From the NCBI GenBank assembly GCA_023512255.1, contig JAILZY010000050.1:1-25065 (forward strand): DNA of 25,065 bases. Reading direction: 5' to 3'. Each line of letters begins with the position of its first letter. The stretch's first letter is position 1. Below the pieces are notes generated by a model. The model was not told where the DNA came from. It was given only the letters and a program-made list of their open reading frames with translations, and did not search any database. This document shows positions 4,625 to 15,417 of this stretch, in pieces. This stretch comes from a bacterium. Lineage in GTDB: Bacteria; SZUA-182; DTGQ01. The position numbers were made by a program, and so were the translations under genes.

Positions 4625-4667
4625 ATTTTTGTGCCTTTTATGCTATCTGATAATCTGATACCCACTT

Positions 4668-4793
4668 AGTGGTCCTTTCGCCAAGGTGCGAGAGTATATC
4701 CCAATTACCCAATCAAAAAATTGTATGGAAATTGTATGGGCGGACCTTATGTCCTCCTACTAAATTGCGCACTTTGTTAACGAGAGGACCACT
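4668..4793 (-). repeat. Dispersed palindromic repeat, copy A
   Basis: A 126-base element starting AGTGGTCCTTTCG and ending in the inverse, CGAGAGGACCACT. Its reverse complement aligns end to end with the copies at 24676 and 24788, including the internal GATTGGGTAATTGG block, so it lies in the opposite orientation. It has no coding capacity. It begins 44 bases after the sulfatase-TPR stop. Confidence 0.75.
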
Positions 4794-4966
4794 ACCCCAT
4801 CCCCCTGCCTTATGAATCTAGGCAGGTCTATATCCAGGGAATATATATATATCCAGATTCAGGGGGAATATATATCCAGGAAATTTTTCAATCATGCCGA
4901 TAAAAACAATTTCTCCCAGAGAATCGAATAAATCCTGGATATATTCCGATAAGTAATTATAAGTAT

Positions 4967-5077
4967 CCGACCATAAATTATAACGTTTTGGTAGGATAAG
5001 CGCCTCGCTGGTCAAGCACAGGCGAGACGCTTGCGCTACCTGAGTAAGTTATAGATCTTTATGGTCGGGCGCTTATC
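4967..5077. repeat. Nested inverted repeat / strong hairpin
   Basis: Outer arms: CCGACCATAAA (4967-4977) pairs with 5058-5068, and GATAAGCGCC (4995-5004) pairs with 5068-5077. Alternatively, 4990-5040 folds into a hairpin of three 5-bp stems (GGTAG/CTACC, AAGCG/CGCTT, CTCGC/GCGAG) separated by symmetric 3/3 and 1/1 internal loops, with a 13-base loop. The two folds compete for GATAAGCGCC. The structure lies just before a small ORF. Between copy A and this element (4800-4960) are several repeats of TATATATCCAG-like sequence. Confidence 0.6.
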
Positions 5078-5122
5078 TTGGGGATAGGGAGTGAAGTATG
5101 CAGTAAACCAGTGAGGGGAAAA

Positions 5123-5329
5123 ATGAGGGAGAGCTTTATGAATATCGAACAAGGCTGCAATATAAACTATATGGTCATGCCTACAAAATCAAAAGAGCCC
5201 ACCTTCAGGGAGAATATGATCGAATTTTCCGTCCTGCCTAGAGAAAGACTCATAATCGATATCGAGAAAAAGCTTAAAGCTGTTGAAAGATTTTTGCTCA
5301 ATCTGAGTGTTGATCTGACTGAGTCGTAA
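5123..5329 (+). CDS. Small hypothetical protein
   Basis: The ATG at 5123 follows GAGGGG at 4-5 bases; the ATG at 5138 also has a good site (GGGAGAG), giving 68 or 63 residues. The frame extends further back to a TTG at 5078, but that would run into the inverted repeat. The product is charged, with an amphipathic C-terminal half containing ERLIIDIEKKLKAVERFLL, likely helical. No signal peptide, membrane segment or known motif is seen. It stands alone between repeats, with a hairpin immediately upstream. Function unknown, and it could be a fortuitous frame. Confidence 0.4.
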   Translation: MRESFMNIEQGCNINYMVMPTKSKEPTFRENMIEFSVLPRERLIIDIEKKLKAVERFLLNLSVDLTES

Positions 5330-5379
5330 TCTTTATTCACTCAATGATATTTCAATCTGAAAATTTTTAGACTTAAAAT

Positions 5380-5409
5380 TTGACAGCTTTTGATCTTATC
5401 CACTATAAT
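5380..5409 (+). promoter_or_regulatory. Near-consensus sigma70-type promoter
   Basis: TTGACA at 5380-5385 and TATAAT at 5404-5409, separated by 18 bases, both match the consensus exactly. The only gene downstream on this strand is the 15-heme cytochrome, whose ATG is at 6080. The leader would be about 660 bases and would contain repeat copy B and the motif at 5908. Alternatively it drives an unrecognised small RNA. Apart from these features, 5330-6079 appears non-coding. Confidence 0.5.
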
Positions 5410-5769
5410 ATAAAAAATCATTAATATAACAAATTACCTATTTTAAGAGGTTATGTCGAAACTCTAGTCTCATTTTCTTTATTCTTTAGCGTATTTTTTA
5501 GTCTCTATTTTGGATAAGTTTTAAGTAGTGGTTAATCTGCCGGTTAATTTTATTTGTTTCCTTCCCCTTAAAATTTGAAGATTAAAAGACAGATGTTCCC
5601 TAAATTCCCTCCTATAGAAAGGGCCAGGGGAGGGAGGTGCTTTTATTCACTCCTTACCCAGCCTTTCCCATCGAGGAGGTGGCAGGGCGATTGCATGAGA
5701 AATTGGCTAGTCAATATGTTATATAGAGTTATCCTAATTATGGTTAATCTATATTCAGTTTAATTTATT

Positions 5770-5877
5770 AGTGGTTCTTTCGCTAAGTAAATATCCATTA
5801 ACGATAACCTCTTAGAGGCCAAAACCTTAAGATTAGCCTTTAATTTTAGTTATTACATACTTAGCGAGAAAACCAAT
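5770..5877 (+). repeat. Dispersed palindromic repeat, copy B
   Basis: Ends AGTGGTTCTTTCGCTAAGTA (5770-5789) and its inverse at 5858-5877 match at 17 of 20 positions. The 108-base element shares its termini with copies A, D1, D2 and E, but its interior differs, lacking the GATTGGGTAATTGG block. Non-coding. Confidence 0.7.
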
Positions 5878-5907
5878 TAGATGCCATGTTTACAATTTTT
5901 CTTCTGT

Positions 5908-5947
5908 GGGTTCCTCATTTTGGTGTCTATTACTGTTATATGAGAGC
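5908..5947 (+). promoter_or_regulatory. Motif shared with the tupB upstream region
   Basis: GGGTTCCTCATTTTG at 5908-5922 and TATATGAGAGC at 5937-5947 recur exactly, in the same order and strand, at 11122-11155, with six fewer bases between the blocks. Here it lies 133 bases before the 15-heme cytochrome start. It may be a shared operator or leader element, or a second short repeat. Confidence 0.45.
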
Positions 5948-6079
5948 AGACCCGGGGAATAGATAAAATCTCATCTCCTCAGCTCATTGGTGCTCTCCTT
6001 ATCGGTACTCTCCATGAAGGAGAGGGTTTTGGCAGGTAGCCAAAAGATTAACTTATTTAAGGTTAGTGAGGGCTTACAT

Positions 6080-9000
6080 ATGTCTATTAAAACCAAAAAA
6101 GTATTATTCTCAGTAAAATCAGTCCATTTCTCCCTTGTATTATCCCTTATCCTTTTTTGGGCAATTCCCTCTTATGCTCTTCAGCAGCTCTGTACCATGC
6201 ATAAGGAGAGCCTAAGGGGGCCTAAAGTTGACTGTACTTATTGCCATGATGATCCTGATTTAGGGAGCTTAAGAGACGGCTTAGGCCTTGCAAACACCAC
6301 TGTCTGTAATGATTGCCATAGCCCGGGGGGACAATTTGACGGGGTGGATGATCCGGTCATTGGAGCCAGGGCCAATTGGCAGGCTGGGGGGGGGTATGAG
6401 GGCAATCAATTGAAGCCGGGGAAGGAGAAGTGGTGTGTCGGCTGCCATGATGATGGAAGCTGTACGATTCTGGGTATAGCCGCAGCTAATATTGCTGGCT
6501 TATCCATGAGCGGAGATTGGCAGAATTCGGCCTCTATAGTTTCATCGAGTGTGCCGGGGGCGGAGAGACTCCTCGATCAGGACCTTGAAACAGGCAACAA
6601 TAGCGGGGTAATCATCTTTGATCTTGGTGAGACCGCGGTGATATCTCATGTTAGGCTATATACCGCGGCTGGGGAGCAGGCCAAGTGGGAGCTTTGGGGA
6701 GGAGTTGATGGTATTTCCTGGAGCAGGGTTGTATTTGGCTCATCAGTACTTTATTCTGCCCCAACTTGGCTAACAGGGCTTGAGGGTGGATGGAGTGAGG
6801 TCAGGCTGGATAAATTCATTCCGATTCGCTATCTCAAATTGGTCAAGGCGAGCTCATGGCCGCTTAGCAAAAATTACCTACGTGAGTTTGAGTTCAAAAA
6901 GGATATTCAGTATGGATATTACATTAGCGGCCACAAGATTGGCTGTAGCCACTGTCATGATTTGGCCAGCGACCACATTGATGGCCAGGCCAGGACCTAC
7001 TGCGCCAGCCAGAATAATTACCAAAGCGGCTATCGCCTAAAGAGCGTAGAGGTGGACGGGCAGATGGTTCTGCCCATGGAGATTCCGCGGGTAGGCTGCA
7101 ACAGTGGAGAAAGTCCTAGGACCGACAATGACTTTGCCCTATGTTTTTCCTGCCATGATAAATATAAGCTTCTTGGCGATGCCTATGGCTCGGGCAGCTT
7201 TCATCAGGATCCTCTGGCTACGAATTTTCGCAATGAGGATCATGTCGATGAAAATGGCAAGGTTAAAAATGAGCATCTTCGCCACCTGCGGGGAAGGGGA
7301 CCATGCGGAAACACCAAGGATTGGGATTCTGACTGGGATGGAGTGGCTGACTCACCGCAGAGCTGTCCAGCTTGTCATAATGTTCACGGCTCACCCTCAC
7401 CAGCCATGACCAGGCATGGAGAGCTGGCTAGTCCAGCGGGCAGCAGCGCTGAGAAGGCCCCTATGTTCAACTTTCGCTACCTGAACGCGGCTGGAAAAGC
7501 CGATTTTAGCTTGCAGAATACTTCCCAAAGTACGGGTGGGCAGACCCAGTTCTGGGGATCAGGGCCAGGAACAGTAGCCAAAAACAAGATCTGCGCCATG
7601 TGCCACAATGATCAGATCATTTACCACCGCAGCCCAGTATCTTCACCCATTGCTCAGTGTCTTGACTGTCATACTTTGGCTAGTGTAGCGGCTATTAATC
7701 CGAGTCATGCCACTCACCTGGTGGTTGATCCTCGTGGTCCGAGCATTGCCTGCACGGTTTGTCATAGTAATTGCAGCCAAGGCAGCCCTCATCTGAAGCT
7801 GATGGCTGACGGCAAGCCCTTAGCCCAAACTACGGCCTGTGATCCATGCCATAGCAAAGACGGTGCCTTTGATGGAATAAATGATCCATTGATCGGCGCT
7901 AAGGTTAACTGGCAGGATGGAGTGTATCAGAAGCCGGAGCGGGTTGACCTAAAGCCAGGGCTGGAAAACTGGTGTGCTGGATGCCATGATCAGGGCACCT
8001 CGGTCTGCATTGGAGTCTCAGCGCCGAATGTCATGGGAGATAACGCCACCTATGGTTATAATATTAATGGCCACAAGATCGCCTGCTCAGCCTGTCATGA
8101 CCTGACCACTACCCACACTGATGGTGACGCCAGGACCTATTCCCATAATTCCGATCCCTTGAACGCGAGCGATGTCCATAATTACCAGAATGGATATCGG
8201 CTGAAATACCGGATGGTTATCCCCCTGCCCACTGGCCCTGGAGGAGGAACCAGCAGAGACAAGTTTGCCCTCTGCTTTGAATGTCATGACTATGATAAGC
8301 TCATGGATAACAGCGAGCCTTTTGAGACCAATTTTCAGGATGAGGATATGATTAACAATATTAATCAGCGGATTAATCGGCACCGCTCTCACCTGATTTC
8401 TGGAAATGTAGCCTGGGATTCTGACTGGGATTATCTCCAGACAGAAGGTGATGCTTTGGACTCCCGGATGAGTTGTCCTGCCTGCCACAATGTGCACGGT
8501 GCGCCCAATCCGATCATGATCCGACATGGTGAGCTAATCAGCACTCCTGGCACTCAGGATAAGGTGCCGGCTTTAGATTTTCGCTGGTATAAAGAGGATG
8601 GTTTTACCCTGACCGTATTTCCTGAAGAGAGCCGCTATGGAGATATGCCACCGCTTGGTGGACCAGGGAATGGCTCTTTAGCAGCCAGCAAGGTGTGCGA
8701 GGGCTGTCATGGCGGCCCCAATCCTATTGTCTATGACCGGAGTTATCAGTCTATCCAGATGCCTTCGGGTAGTTGGGCCAGACCACCGCTTCCACCCTCA
8801 GTGCGGATGCTGAGCCCAGCTTCAGGCAGCAAAGATGTAGCTCCAGACAGATCGTTATCTTTCCTACTCCTGTCGAACGGACACGATGCCCTAGACCTTG
8901 CTACCTTATCAGTCTCTCTTCGAGGGTCGATCTCTTATGATCAGCTCTATACATACGGAGACAGTGAGATTGAAGTCTCCACTTTGCCGTCGCCTAGATC

Positions 9001-9949
9001 CATGGATTATCAGGTGAAAGTTTTCCCTTCAGCCAATTTTGGCGATTATGAGAGAATTACGGTAACTATCTCGGTTCGGGACAACAGAGGCCATAAGTTG
9101 ACCTCTCCTTCCTGGTACTTTGAAACCGGCGGATCTTCTCCTGTAATCTGGAAGAGCCCGCAGGCGATCCACTCAGCTGGCTTATTCTGGTATCCAGAGC
9201 GTCTGATCGACGATCTTCATGAGACAGGAAATCCCTTTGTGGCCGGTGCTAGTCACTGGATAGTATTTGATTTGGGACAGAGCTATGAAGTCAGTCAGGT
9301 TCGCCTGTTGATTCCTTCGCTTGAGGTGGCTCGAACTTGGACCATATGGGTGAGTGATGATCCGGCTAACTTTGGAACAGCCGTAAAAACAAACTGGCTG
9401 GCTGAGCCACCTACGATTACGGTAGACAATACCCAAGCAGAATTTACCCCAGATGCAGCTTCCTGGCCCTCCTCGAAGGCGATCAGTGGCTATTACGGCA
9501 CTGATTACCAAACTCATGCTACCGTGCTTGGAGACGATACTGCTACCTGTACCTGGACTCCTGAGATTCCTGCTGATGGCACCTACCAGGTTTATGCTCG
9601 TTGGACCAGCAGTGCTGACCGAGCTCAAGATGCTAGCTACACCATAAACTATAGCGGTGGATCGGAAACGATATTGGTAAATCAGCAGCTAAATGGAGGA
9701 AAATGGAATCTTCTAGGCACCTATTATTTTGTGCAGGGAACCTCTGGTAATATTGTCCTGGGCAATAGATCCTCATCCGAAGGTTACTTGGTGATAGCTG
9801 ATGCTATTCGACTCGTTCCGACCGAGAACTTGCCGGTCTGGGTCAGTACATCAGTTACTACAAAAACGGGAAGATATCTCAAGCTCTCTACCGGACAGGG
9901 ACCTTTGAGTGAGGATACGGTCAGAGAAATAGACTTTGTCGGCAATTAA
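6080..9949 (+). CDS. Secreted 15-heme cytochrome c with F5/8C, Ig-like and golvesin domains
   Basis: The ATG at 6080 has GAGG eight bases upstream and gives 1289 residues starting with a signal peptide (hydrophobic 15-30, cleavage near SYA33). The frame continues 31 codons upstream without a better site. Fifteen CXXCH heme sites start at residues 53, 76, 119, 289, 355, 429, 505, 527, 558, 587, 632, 669, 732, 799 and 873. Sites 1-7 and 9-15 are two copies of one seven-heme unit, shown by matching blocks such as GHKI-C-CHDL, NYQ-GYRLK, WDSDWD and CPACHNVHG-P-P-M-RHGEL. A discoidin-like (F5/8C) domain at about 133-275 interrupts only the first unit. Then come an Ig-like domain (about 907-1017), a second F5/8C domain (1022-1106 plus 1251-1289) and a golvesin-like domain (1111-1247) inserted inside it. 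No C-terminal anchor is seen. It is likely an extracytoplasmic electron carrier with surface-binding modules; its redox partner is unknown. Confidence 0.92.
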   Translation: MSIKTKKVLFSVKSVHFSLVLSLILFWAIPSYALQQLCTMHKESLRGPKVDCTYCHDDPDLGSLRDGLGLANTTVCNDCHSPGGQFDGVDDPVIGARANWQAGGGYEGNQLKPGKEKWCVGCHDDGSCTILGIAAANIAGLSMSGDWQNSASIVSSSVPGAERLLDQDLETGNNSGVIIFDLGETAVISHVRLYTAAGEQAKWELWGGVDGISWSRVVFGSSVLYSAPTWLTGLEGGWSEVRLDKFIPIRYLKLVKASSWPLSKNYLREFEFKKDIQYGYYISGHKIGCSHCHDLASDHIDGQARTYCASQNNYQSGYRLKSVEVDGQMVLPMEIPRVGCNSGESPRTDNDFALCFSCHDKYKLLGDAYGSGSFHQDPLATNFRNEDHVDENGKVKNEHLRHLRGRGPCGNTKDWDSDWDGVADSPQSCPACHNVHGSPSPAMTRHGELASPAGSSAEKAPMFNFRYLNAAGKADFSLQNTSQSTGGQTQFWGSGPGTVAKNKICAMCHNDQIIYHRSPVSSPIAQCLDCHTLASVAAINPSHATHLVVDPRGPSIACTVCHSNCSQGSPHLKLMADGKPLAQTTACDPCHSKDGAFDGINDPLIGAKVNWQDGVYQKPERVDLKPGLENWCAGCHDQGTSVCIGVSAPNVMGDNATYGYNINGHKIACSACHDLTTTHTDGDARTYSHNSDPLNASDVHNYQNGYRLKYRMVIPLPTGPGGGTSRDKFALCFECHDYDKLMDNSEPFETNFQDEDMINNINQRINRHRSHLISGNVAWDSDWDYLQTEGDALDSRMSCPACHNVHGAPNPIMIRHGELISTPGTQDKVPALDFRWYKEDGFTLTVFPEESRYGDMPPLGGPGNGSLAASKVCEGCHGGPNPIVYDRSYQSIQMPSGSWARPPLPPSVRMLSPASGSKDVAPDRSLSFLLLSNGHDALDLATLSVSLRGSISYDQLYTYGDSEIEVSTLPSPRSMDYQVKVFPSANFGDYERITVTISVRDNRGHKLTSPSWYFETGGSSPVIWKSPQAIHSAGLFWYPERLIDDLHETGNPFVAGASHWIVFDLGQSYEVSQVRLLIPSLEVARTWTIWVSDDPANFGTAVKTNWLAEPPTITVDNTQAEFTPDAASWPSSKAISGYYGTDYQTHATVLGDDTATCTWTPEIPADGTYQVYARWTSSADRAQDASYTINYSGGSETILVNQQLNGGKWNLLGTYYFVQGTSGNIVLGNRSSSEGYLVIADAIRLVPTENLPVWVSTSVTTKTGRYLKLSTGQGPLSEDTVREIDFVGN

Positions 9950-11983: not shown

Positions 11984-13000
11984 ATGAGCAGGATTATCGA
12001 GCTTAAAAATATCACCCATTTCTATGGAGAGCGAAAGGTGCTTGATATTGCTAGCCTTTCCCTTGAAAAGGGCCGGATTTACGGCCTGGTTGGACCTAAC
12101 GGCTCAGGCAAGACCACCCTTTTGTCCATCATGGCTCTTTTGCTCAGGCCGAGCAGCGGAGAGATTTATTTTGAAGGCCAGCCGATCTCCGGCCTTTCTA
12201 AAATCTCCCGTATGGTTATTCAAAGGTCCATGACTATGGTGTTTCAGAATCCCTATCTTTTCCATATGTCAGTGGCTAAAAATATTGCCTATGGGCTGCG
12301 GGTCCGTGGTCTTTCCCGCAAGGCTCGATCGGCCAAGGTCAAGGAGGCCCTTTCCTGGGTTGGACTTGCGGGTTTTGAAAAAAGAAAGGCTAGGGAGCTC
12401 TCCGGCGGTGAAATCAAGCTAGTGGCTTTGGCTAGGGCACTGGTTCTTGATCCGGCCATCATTTTTCTTGATGAGCCGACGGCCAATGTGGATAGTCGGC
12501 ATATCCACCGGATCGAGAGCATTATCAGTCAAATCAACCGGGATCGTGGAACCACGGTAGTTATGACCACTCATAATCTTTCGCAGGCTTATCGGCTGGC
12601 GGATGAGGTTTTCTCCCTTTTTGAAGGCTCCTTAGTAACTTCAGCCATGCACAACCTCTTCTCAGGCCGATTTCAGGAGACCGAAGAGGGAATTTTTTTT
12701 GATACCGGGGCAGTTCGCATTTGGGTATCTGCCGAGACCATCCCTTCCGATTCAACCCATATAACCATTGATCCTGAAAATATCATCGTCTCAAAAGAAC
12801 CATTTGCCTCAAGCGCCAGGAATAGATTTGAGGGAACTGTCTCCCAGATTATTGACCAGGGCGGGAGAATTCTTCTTGAAATCCGCTCTCAGGAGAGATT
12901 CAAGGTTTTGATCACCGAACATTCCCTACGGGAAATAGGACTTGGGATTGGCTCTCCGGTTTATCTGACCTTCAAGGCTTCCTCAGTGAATATCTTGTAA
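11984..13000 (+). CDS. tupC: Tungstate ABC transporter ATPase with C-terminal TOBE/Mop-like domain
   Basis: ATP-hydrolysing subunit that powers tungstate import through TupB. The ATG at 11984 follows GAGGAG closely. The 338 residues contain Walker A GPNGSGKTT (37-45), Q-loop Q88, the signature LSGGE (139-143), Walker B IIFLDEP (159-165) and switch histidine H197. Residues about 265-338 (from IVSKEPFASS on) form an extra domain resembling the TOBE/Mop oxyanion-binding regulatory domain of ModC and WtpC. Many TupC proteins are only about 200-240 residues and lack it, so this version may sense intracellular tungstate or molybdate. The 3' end overlaps the convergent nonaheme cytochrome gene by 18 bases. 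Confidence 0.88.
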   Translation: MSRIIELKNITHFYGERKVLDIASLSLEKGRIYGLVGPNGSGKTTLLSIMALLLRPSSGEIYFEGQPISGLSKISRMVIQRSMTMVFQNPYLFHMSVAKNIAYGLRVRGLSRKARSAKVKEALSWVGLAGFEKRKARELSGGEIKLVALARALVLDPAIIFLDEPTANVDSRHIHRIESIISQINRDRGTTVVMTTHNLSQAYRLADEVFSLFEGSLVTSAMHNLFSGRFQETEEGIFFDTGAVRIWVSAETIPSDSTHITIDPENIIVSKEPFASSARNRFEGTVSQIIDQGGRILLEIRSQERFKVLITEHSLREIGLGIGSPVYLTFKASSVNIL

Positions 13001-14326
13001 TTTATTTTTCAGCCTGGATCTTTGATAGGCAATCAGGGCAAAGGAGGCTGATATGAACAAAAGCATGTGCTCTAACCACTCTCTTCTCTGCCTGGCCTCC
13101 TGGTAGCACCGATCAATCCGCTGGTCAATGGTATTCATGATCTTGCGGGCCTTGGTTATAATCTGACTTACTATCTGGATATCCTGTGAATGAGTAGCCT
13201 TAACGGCCTGTTTGAGATTTTCAGTAACATCATCCATTTTTAGATTGAGACTGGAAATATCGATATCTAAATCTTGTTTCAGTTGGTTGATTTTGCTTTG
13301 GGTTAGAGCTGCTTCTCGTTTGGCCTGTTTGATGAGAGCCCGAAGCCTCAGACCACACTGATACTCTGCTGACTCAGGCGGATGACAGGATCCGCAGTGT
13401 GAGGCGGCCTTGCCAGCAAAAAGCTCTTCACTCGGAATTGGAATATCGTGATAGCCATGACAGTCAATGCAGCGGGGCTTTCGATTTTTTTTCAGCAGTA
13501 GGCTATGAATACTTTTCTGGAAATATCGCTTGCAATTCAAATGGCAGTTATTGCAAGCCTCAGCGACCTCAGACACCCCAGCTGGCTTTCCACTGTGGAT
13601 TCCGTGACAGCCCGGGCAGGAGGGTGCCAGACGGGGATTTTCCCTCTCGATCTGCTGATAGACGATCTGGCCATGATAACTTTTCTTATACTTGCTTAAC
13701 TGGTCGGTGGGAAGACCGTAGGGCTTCATTAGATTTCTATCAGCATGACAGCGGGCGCAGGTATAAGCTATATTCTGGTGGTTGACCTTTGATTGGGGAT
13801 CATCTGGTTTTCTGATATCGTGGCTATCGTGACAGTCCACGCAACTGGCTACATCCTGGTTATTATTATTAAGCAGCTGCTGTCCATGAACGCTGTTTTT
13901 ATACTGATTCTCCTCATCAATTCGGATATCATACTTTCGCATGTAGAGAGGATCGTCATGACAGCGGCTACAGAGTCCAGGAATCTGCTTTTTGGATGGT
14001 GAGCCGATGAAGCCTTCTTTTCCGATTATTGGCGCTTTAGGCGAAGTAGGATTGCCGCCATGACATTCTTCACAGCAGACTGAAACAAGCGCGTGAGCGC
14101 TTTTAAGCCACTGTTGGGCGCAGCGAGCTAATTCATGTTTTGATGATCCCAGGTGGCAACTAAGACAGGTGTTTTTTTGAATAGCCCAGGAGATTTGGCA
14201 GTCAAGCAAAGTGGCCATGATGAATATAAGGAAAAGAAGAAGCGACAGAATAGGCAATAAGGATGAGGCAGAGGCCGCCGCGGCCGGCCGCAGTTGAGGT
14301 TCTCTGAGGGAGGATAGCGGTCTCAT
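12983..14326 (-). CDS. Membrane-anchored nine-heme cytochrome c
   Basis: The ATG at 14326 overlaps the cytochrome b stop as ATGA, so I prefer it to the upstream frame, which runs back inside cytochrome b. The 447-residue product has an N-terminal hydrophobic segment (about 23-43). It then has nine CXXCH sites, starting at residues 54, 85, 119, 162, 190, 237, 258, 286 and 311. Many histidines outside these motifs (for example SVHGQ, SYHGQ, SIHS) are likely distal heme ligands. Residues about 320-415 are highly charged and helical, probably coiled coil, leading to a second membrane helix near 420-434 and a basic tail. The heme domain would face the periplasm, tethered at both ends. With the coupled cytochrome b it is likely a quinol-oxidising electron-transfer complex. 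I cannot name a closer family than the multiheme cytochrome c3/NapC-NirT-like group. Confidence 0.88.
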   Translation of the reverse strand: MRPLSSLREPQLRPAAAASASSLLPILSLLLFLIFIMATLLDCQISWAIQKNTCLSCHLGSSKHELARCAQQWLKSAHALVSVCCEECHGGNPTSPKAPIIGKEGFIGSPSKKQIPGLCSRCHDDPLYMRKYDIRIDEENQYKNSVHGQQLLNNNNQDVASCVDCHDSHDIRKPDDPQSKVNHQNIAYTCARCHADRNLMKPYGLPTDQLSKYKKSYHGQIVYQQIERENPRLAPSCPGCHGIHSGKPAGVSEVAEACNNCHLNCKRYFQKSIHSLLLKKNRKPRCIDCHGYHDIPIPSEELFAGKAASHCGSCHPPESAEYQCGLRLRALIKQAKREAALTQSKINQLKQDLDIDISSLNLKMDDVTENLKQAVKATHSQDIQIVSQIITKARKIMNTIDQRIDRCYQEARQRREWLEHMLLFISASFALIAYQRSRLKNKLQDIH

Positions 14327-15417
14327 GAGCAGACGCCTAACAGGGTGAGTGCCAGGAAGATGAGCAGCCCAGCAGCAGTCAAGGCAATGGTCAAGGGACG
14401 TATCCATGTATTCTCGCCTTGTTGTGAGGGAACGAAAAAAGGGAGCAGCCCAAGCAGCAGAAAAATCCCAATGTGGAGCATAATACCAAAAATAATGCTG
14501 ACATTCTGTCGCTCTGGTGAGATTTTTCTAAGAAGCTGAAAGACCTCATAAGAGGCCATAAAATACCATTCAGGTTTAATGTTCAGGATTGAATTTAGGG
14601 GATCGGCCTTTTGAGCCATGCGGGCTGGGTAGAGTGTGGCCAGAGAGAATAAAATGCCCGTCAGGATTATAACTATCAAGACATGGAGTAGTAGATCTGC
14701 AGGTATCAGGGACCTTCTGGCCGAGAATATATGCCCTAGCGCCAGGAAGATAAAGAGTAGGGGAGCGATTAGAATGTGAAGGGCGAAAAAGCGCGACAGA
14801 GTCATCTGCGAGACCTCATTCCCCCCACGAATAAGGATTTTGATTGGCTCTCCAACCAAGGGAACGGCTGCTGAAAGCTGGGTAAGAAAGGTAGTTGCCC
14901 AATAGGAGCCTTGGGTCCAGGGAAGCAAATGTCCCGAAGTTCCGATTACGCCTATCAAAATCATCAGGATAATGCCCAGAATCCAGGTTGATTTCAAGGC
15001 TAGCCGATAGATTTGAGCAAGTTGCTGCCAAAAGTGGAGCAAGAGGGAAAGAATGAGAAGATGAATCCCCCACATATGCACTCCTCTAATTAGCCAGCCA
15101 TAGTGCAGATTATTGGTAATCTGCTGAATTGATTCATAAGCTTCTGAAACCGTAGGTCGATAATATAGCAGTAGCAAAATGCCACTTATTCCCTCGATCC
15201 AAAACAGGTGAAAGATAATCCAGCCTGAGCAGGAAGACCATCGCACGGGTTCTGGCTTCAGGCATTGGCGCAGTGCTGCTGCCAGGCTCTGCGAGCTAGT
15301 TTCCTCTTTTTTATTTTTATACAGACTGCCGTAGCCTTTGAGCTGATTTTCCTGCACAGCTGGACTATCTGGACTATCATGTATATGGTGGGGGGAATGG
15401 ATTCTCCTTACCTTCAT
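14323..15417 (-). CDS. b6-type cytochrome b with fused subunit-IV-like region
   Basis: Integral membrane diheme cytochrome b, expected to oxidise quinol and pass electrons onward. The 364-residue product has heme-ligand pairs H114/H128 and H214/H229; the 15-residue second spacing is the b6 type, not the bc1 type. GTSGHLLPWTQGSYW (159-173) lies in the Qo region. PEWY at 282-285, the Qo-site motif of subunit IV, shows that the b6 and subunit-IV parts are one chain, with about seven or eight membrane helices. The N-terminal 60 residues are hydrophilic and histidine-rich in HSPHHIHDS. The ATG at 15417 has a poor ribosome site, so the true start is uncertain; the start region is duplicated 72 bases upstream. 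It is translationally coupled by ATGA to the nonaheme cytochrome. No Rieske gene is present in the window. Confidence 0.92.
   Translation of the reverse strand: MKVRRIHSPHHIHDSPDSPAVQENQLKGYGSLYKNKKEETSSQSLAAALRQCLKPEPVRWSSCSGWIIFHLFWIEGISGILLLLYYRPTVSEAYESIQQITNNLHYGWLIRGVHMWGIHLLILSLLLHFWQQLAQIYRLALKSTWILGIILMILIGVIGTSGHLLPWTQGSYWATTFLTQLSAAVPLVGEPIKILIRGGNEVSQMTLSRFFALHILIAPLLFIFLALGHIFSARRSLIPADLLLHVLIVIILTGILFSLATLYPARMAQKADPLNSILNIKPEWYFMASYEVFQLLRKISPERQNVSIIFGIMLHIGIFLLLGLLPFFVPSQQGENTWIRPLTIALTAAGLLIFLALTLLGVCS

Follow-up and report, generated by a model that had tools for sequence, protein, structure and literature searches.

The window analyzed here, a 25,065-nucleotide stretch of DNA (contig JAILZY010000050.1 of GenBank assembly GCA_023512255.1, positions 1 to 25,065 of the forward strand) from a bacterium of the SZUA-182 lineage, encodes a 1289-residue multiheme cytochrome with 15 CxxCH motifs. 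Comparison of this protein with its relatives indicated that it comprises two seven-heme units linked by a further heme, and that beta-sandwich domains (F5/8C and Golvesin) have been gained, moved and lost in the loops of these units. We are highly confident that the overall architecture of this protein family is real and that it is unusually modular.

Two seven-heme units in one chain

The gene and its heme-bearing parts are listed below; the limits of the units are based on self-comparison, mapping on relatives and an alignment of units.

6080..9949 (+): whole gene, with ATG at 6080 and a stop ending at 9949; 1289 residues, 15 CxxCH
6080..6181 (+): likely Sec signal peptide, residues 1-34 (...LFWAIPSYA/LQ), read by eye from the sequence
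6188..6475 (+): first part of unit 1, hemes 1-3, residues 37-132
6914..7624 (+): second part of unit 1, hemes 4-7, residues 279-515
7658..7672 (+): heme 8 (CLDCH), residues 527-531, the linker between the units, from motif position
7706..8737 (+): unit 2, hemes 9-15, residues 543-886

There are exactly 15 CxxCH motifs in the protein, starting at residues 52, 76, 119, 289, 355, 429, 505, 527, 558, 587, 632, 669, 732, 799, and 873. Their spacings are 24, 43, 170 (with the insert included), 66, 74, and 76 in unit 1 and 29, 45, 37, 63, 67, and 74 in unit 2. An initial annotation of this gene had proposed a one-to-one alignment of hemes 1-7 with hemes 9-15, and heme 8 as a linker, and both proposals held. 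The motif at residue 527 sits between the units, and a self-alignment of the kind suggested there as a check, here a blastp comparison of residues 41-525 with residues 526-900, returned two collinear blocks of 107 bits (48% identity) and 167 bits (40% identity), so that an alignable duplication is present. With the insert removed, the local alignment score of unit 1 against unit 2 was 644, versus a mean of 61.5 (standard deviation 10.9) and a maximum of 117 for 500 randomizations in which every CxxCH was fixed in place. Because the score is far above these CxxCH-preserving shuffles, the match is not due to the heme motifs alone, and we rejected the explanation that the duplication signal is a mere effect of motifs common to both halves.

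Each unit has seven CxxCH motifs and six further histidines, outside these motifs, that are invariant across 13 aligned units, and an extra histidine often directly precedes the first heme of the unit. Based on these residues, bis-histidine ligation may be possible for most or all of the hemes, which would suit an electron carrier rather than a substrate-binding heme. The protein matches Cytochrome_C7 (E 1.6e-12) in a Pfam scan and has the general features of a multiheme c-type cytochrome, that is, several CxxCH motifs, candidate distal histidines and a signal peptide as read from the sequence. Searches of the PDB produced no credible sequence match between the seven-heme unit and a solved cytochrome, the best being cytochrome c4 at an E of 0.063.

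Family members and their inserted domains

The search of other genomes for this domain order, also suggested in the initial annotation, revealed a multi-member family. In the genome of the window (G000, 96.6% complete) there are paralogs on contigs C134 (locus L042, 15 hemes), C121 (24 hemes) and, more distantly related, C120 (26 hemes). In the sister species (G001) there is an ortholog, L045, together with six further family members, and G003 has several. As determined with a unit profile, the family is present in 5 of the 9 species sampled in a small phylum and in 3 of the 377 genomes sampled outside it; G095, outside the phylum, has a strong full-unit match (E 3e-95) that lacks an insert. 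One G003 relative (L041 4093-6957 / L051 6353-10846) has a Ser/Glu-rich tail ending in GKGSCFIKSVF, which is similar to the tails that anchor proteins by their C terminus; the window protein has no such tail.

The domains of the window protein that do not carry heme are as follows.

6476..6907 (+): F5/8C-like domain between hemes 3 and 4 of unit 1, residues 133-276, from relatives, Pfam and hhalign
8792..9127 (+): Big_5 Ig-like domain, residues 905-1016 (approximate), below the Pfam cut-off here and above it in L048 (29.7 bits)
9140..9415 (+): first part of the C-terminal F5/8C domain, residues 1021-1112, from Pfam and mapping on relatives
9416..9817 (+): Golvesin_C domain within the C-terminal F5/8C domain, residues 1113-1246, from Pfam, a PDB match and relatives
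9818..9946 (+): last part of the C-terminal F5/8C domain, residues 1247-1289, from mapping on relatives

The initial annotation was correct that in this protein only unit 1 has an internal F5/8C domain, but its picture was incomplete, as it overlooked the C-terminal 390 residues with the Big_5 domain, a second F5/8C domain and the nested Golvesin_C domain. By Pfam, F5/8C (PF00754/PF22633) is found in two stretches of the whole protein with 34.8 bits (cut-off 28.2), the internal domain alone giving 19.2 bits (PF00754, E 0.0014), under the same cut-off of 28.2. Despite this weak Pfam match, we consider the internal assignment solid because homologous inserts are present in seven relatives and because the insert is similar to the C-terminal F5/8C domain of the family (hhalign probability 99.4, E 1.6e-21, 30% identity). 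In addition, a profile of the eight F5/8C inserts matched the C-terminal F5/8C domains of the family with E-values of 1e-16 to 2e-10, versus 2e-3 or worse for the other F5/8C domains of these genomes. These similarities are most simply read as inward movement of a copied C-terminal domain into the heme 3/4 loop; an outside donor common to both copies is a possible alternative source.

The Golvesin_C match was strong (PF25275, E 2e-37, 128.6 bits, cut-off 31.6), and a PDB search aligned the domain with residues 905-1038 of 6f2p_A, the C-terminal domain of a Paenibacillus xanthan lyase (E 1.3e-23). Its nesting inside the F5/8C domain is shown by the relatives: the single-unit proteins L048 and L049 have a continuous C-terminal F5/8C domain, whereas in the window protein, L045 and L051 Golvesin divides that domain in two.

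To locate the insert sites, we mapped the parts of the window protein onto all relatives and aligned the 13 units. Eight proteins have F5/8C in loop 3/4 of unit 1, and L053 has Golvesin in the same loop of unit 2, at a slightly shifted point. Loop 5/6 contains Golvesin in L048, in L049 and in unit 2 of L051, as does loop 6/7 in unit 2 of L042 and of both copies of L046. Across the family, both seven-heme units accept inserts. As judged from these alignments, the seven-heme unit is a conserved chassis in which at least three loops (3/4, 5/6, and 6/7) take a beta-sandwich without breaking the heme series.

One of these loops appears to record the loss of a domain. The stretch of loop 5/6 from the WDSDW-like to the CPACH-like motif is 140-143 residues long where it contains Golvesin and 8 residues long in the remaining units that were measured; it has 14 residues in unit 2 of the window protein (DYLQTEGDALDSRM) and of L045 (NYLQTDDEPLDSRL).

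8429..8470 (+): DYLQTEGDALDSRM, 14 residues of loop 5/6 in unit 2, probably a scar left when a Golvesin domain was lost, from the unit alignment and loop comparison

In the window protein, this stretch matches the Golvesin insert of L048, L049 and L051 at both ends of the insert. Since the unit tree places unit 2 of L051 as an outer branch to L048, L049 and the second unit of the window protein, the simplest account would be that Golvesin was once present in loop 5/6 of unit 2 and was lost with a residual scar.

Age of the duplication and probable exchange between paralogs

All unit 1 sequences form one group in the unit tree (support 98/94). Unit 2 of the window protein groups with unit 2 of L045, unit 2 of L051 and the single-unit proteins of the sister species (support 100/99), and it is 59-76% identical to these group mates versus 40-48% to its own unit 1. 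In the C134 paralog, unit 1 is of the same type and unit 2 is of a different type (100/99). The duplication is old, in that unit 2 lies nearer to the single-unit proteins than to unit 1, and because both units occur together in G003, a protein with two units already existed before these genera diverged. The description of the protein as made by duplicating a seven-heme unit is consequently apt for the distant past and not for a recent event. That the unit 1 and unit 2 groups are sisters is only moderately supported (83/91), and internal duplication and fusion of two paralogous units are for this reason both possible origins. We also considered whether the extra N-terminal hemes of L048 could be a remnant of unit 1, but this was not supported (score 54, where shuffles averaged 49 and reached 78 at most).

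Comparison at the DNA level pointed to exchange between paralogs within the genome of the window.

6910..7480 (+): near-identical tract shared with the C134 paralog (L042), a probable recent gene conversion, from DNA comparison

Over this tract of about 0.55 kb, the window gene and the C134 paralog have 96% DNA identity (92% at third codon positions), versus 57-69% outside it, and the ortholog L045 is 76% identical to the window gene within the tract. These values point to a likely recent gene conversion of the part of unit 1 that carries hemes 4-6. Collapse of the two genes during assembly is less likely, as judged from the assembled sequence alone, because the mismatches are spread throughout the tract.

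Putative role of the protein and neighboring genes

The window protein is, on balance, probably a secreted electron conduit that is tethered to a surface or matrix, based on the suitability of the heme units for electron carriage and the resemblance of the beta domains to polysaccharide and surface binders. F5/8C domains are of a kind associated with polysaccharide and surface binding. The two seven-heme units joined through heme 8 would carry electrons, and the F5/8C, Golvesin_C and Ig-like beta-sandwiches would tether the protein either to cell-wall or matrix polysaccharide, or to whatever receives the electrons, a solid or a partner cell. Across the paralogs the chassis is constant, and the gain, movement and loss of domains would retune what each cytochrome sticks to. 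We infer export beyond the periplasm, binding to polysaccharide or solids, electron flow between the units, and a role in extracellular respiration or electron transfer to a partner. The suggestion in the initial annotation of a candidate for electron transfer with built-in adhesion is thus plausible and is supported in part. Also in favor of a conduit is the abundance of multiheme cytochromes in this genome, including a large cluster on contig C10 (L097, L098) whose members have 25, 16, 8, 11, 6, 3, and 28 CxxCH motifs. More tentatively, the family may represent a plug-in system in which fixed loops of the seven-heme chassis take, swap and discard ligand-binding domains, gene conversion keeps the chassis uniform, and one cell fields conduits with different targets; we regard this as conceivable rather than probable.

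Several observations weigh against a tethered conduit. Other than the signal peptide, no localization signal was seen in the window protein; there is no porin-cytochrome partner adjoining the gene, and the Pfam search of the 96.6% complete genome gave no match to an MtrB/PioB-type porin (PF11854). The only neighbors conserved in the sister species are two genes upstream, which encode a sulfatase-tetratricopeptide repeat (TPR) protein and a Thr-rich protein. AlphaFold models from shallow alignments (2 and 4 rows; window and L041 sequences) were unusable for heme geometry, with mean predicted local distance difference test scores of 25.1 and 34.6. Lastly, beta domains in cytochromes can serve structure.

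It is this last point on which the best-surviving alternative is based, namely that the beta-sandwiches shield, space or pack the heme units and bind nothing outside, in a protein that is still an extracellular conduit. We consider this alternative rather unlikely. In its favor, the MtrC, MtrF, OmcA and UndA proteins of Shewanella, which function in electron transfer at the cell surface, likewise alternate two heme domains with beta domains in each chain (PMC7096707), and the split beta-barrels of MtrC and OmcA flank the heme domains. PF22113, which represents domains II/IV of MtrC/MtrF, also scored weakly in the window protein (27.9 bits, cut-off 30) and exceeded the cut-off in L045 (36.3 bits), L052 (37.2), L053 (51.5), and L092 (41.1), and because it passes in these relatives the heme unit may be distantly related to the heme domains of MtrC-type proteins. 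The window protein resembles the Shewanella proteins in joining two heme units and beta domains in one chain, but it has 7+1+7 hemes rather than 5+5 (or 5+6), and its beta domains belong to the F5/8C, Golvesin and Ig-like types, with one placed inside a heme unit. The two penta/hexaheme domains with two split beta-barrels of the MtrC/MtrF-like class were not found in it, and no PDB chain of that class was matched. An essential packing role also fits poorly with the inserts, since these vary in kind (F5/8C or Golvesin) and in the loop they occupy, and closely related units lack them.

Less likely still is a periplasmic electron store or shuttle whose beta domains tether it to periplasmic or peptidoglycan-associated polymers. 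The lack of a visible lipobox or sorting tail in the sequence of the window protein, with a Sec-type signal peptide as the only targeting feature and no porin-cytochrome genes nearby, is consistent with such a location. However, 1289 residues and several adhesion-type domains would be unusual in the periplasm, and the SCFIKSVF-ending tail of the G003 relative resembles a C-terminal anchor. We view as highly improbable a polysaccharide-linked redox protein that acts on a polymer or its redox groups rather than as a conduit to solids or cells: the PSCyt proteins of Verrucomicrobia and Planctomycetes do chain cytochrome domains with carbohydrate-binding modules, Big_2 or F5/8C (PMC5615132), and the upstream sulfatase gene is conserved in the sister species, but the PSCyt domains are of a different cytochrome type and none matched the window protein in the Pfam scan, no glycoside hydrolase or polysaccharide lyase was present among the scanned neighbors, and the sulfatase bears TPRs and is 1.4 kb distant.

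The tethered conduit that we favor can also be compared with other systems. The large cytochromes MHC-A, -B, and -C of anaerobic methanotrophic (ANME) archaea are giant extracellular proteins with non-heme surface domains, and the pectin-lyase-like domain of MHC-C has been suggested to function in partner-cell recognition (PMC9012536). The window protein similarly combines hemes with non-heme domains of surface type; unlike the ANME proteins, it is bacterial, has a repeated heme unit, and lacks a C-terminal transmembrane helix and a pectin-lyase fold. The S-layer domain that is a feature of ANME MHC-A/B was not detected in it by the Pfam scan, and neither the protein nor the unit profile had a PDB match to filament cytochromes of the OmcS/OmcE/OmcZ kind. 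The Golvesin_C-type domain is common to the window protein and the Paenibacillus xanthan lyase (6f2p), but in the latter it is part of a polysaccharide lyase and in the former it is nested inside the F5/8C domain of a cytochrome. Our literature search, which covered few subscription journals, found no paper that links multiheme cytochromes with golvesin or discoidin domains. While the mixing of heme and surface domains was already known from MtrC-like and ANME proteins, the pattern of inserts in the loops, the nesting of domains at the C terminus and the scar of domain loss are new.

Elsewhere in the window, 12983-14407 (-) encodes a protein that has nine CxxCH motifs and, close to the C terminus, a hydrophobic segment; its gene overlaps that of a cytochrome b6/petD-like cytochrome b (14323-15417, -; PF00033 1.7e-41, below the ExtP cut-off), and the pair (12983-15417, -) is a candidate quinol:cytochrome oxidoreductase. 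Upstream of the 15-heme cytochrome gene, 4625-5986 comprises about 1.4 kb without a long open reading frame, in which 4922-4955 and 5212-5268 are 79-91% conserved in the sister species; there was no Rfam match here or in the rest of the window. The Thr-rich protein (988-1644, +) has repeated TSTIGTTTALLLGG blocks and no Pfam match, and is 84% identical in the sister species, where gene order is kept. The last 75 bases of the window, at the contig end (24991-25065), are 91% identical to the end of C134 (L042 10927-11000), a repeat at contig ends. Beside the 15-heme paralog on C134, L042 1-4009 (-) encodes a molybdopterin oxidoreductase in two frames (209 residues with a twin-arginine translocation signal and an Fe4S4 domain, then 923 residues) and an Fe4S4 subunit. 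This enzyme is formate-dehydrogenase-like and is perhaps split by a TGA read as selenocysteine. In G004, of the same order, L057 10235-18001 (+) contains a 49-CxxCH frame of at least 2589 residues that adjoins a 26-heme protein and resembles a 21-heme protein of G000.

How extracellular cytochromes locate and hold their solid or cellular partners is poorly understood. With a chassis that is constant and F5/8C and Golvesin domains that enter and leave three of its loops, the family offers a natural matched set for separating the binding part of such a protein from its electron-carrying part. It also illustrates a route to giant multiheme proteins, in which two copies of a unit are joined and a terminal domain is moved inward.

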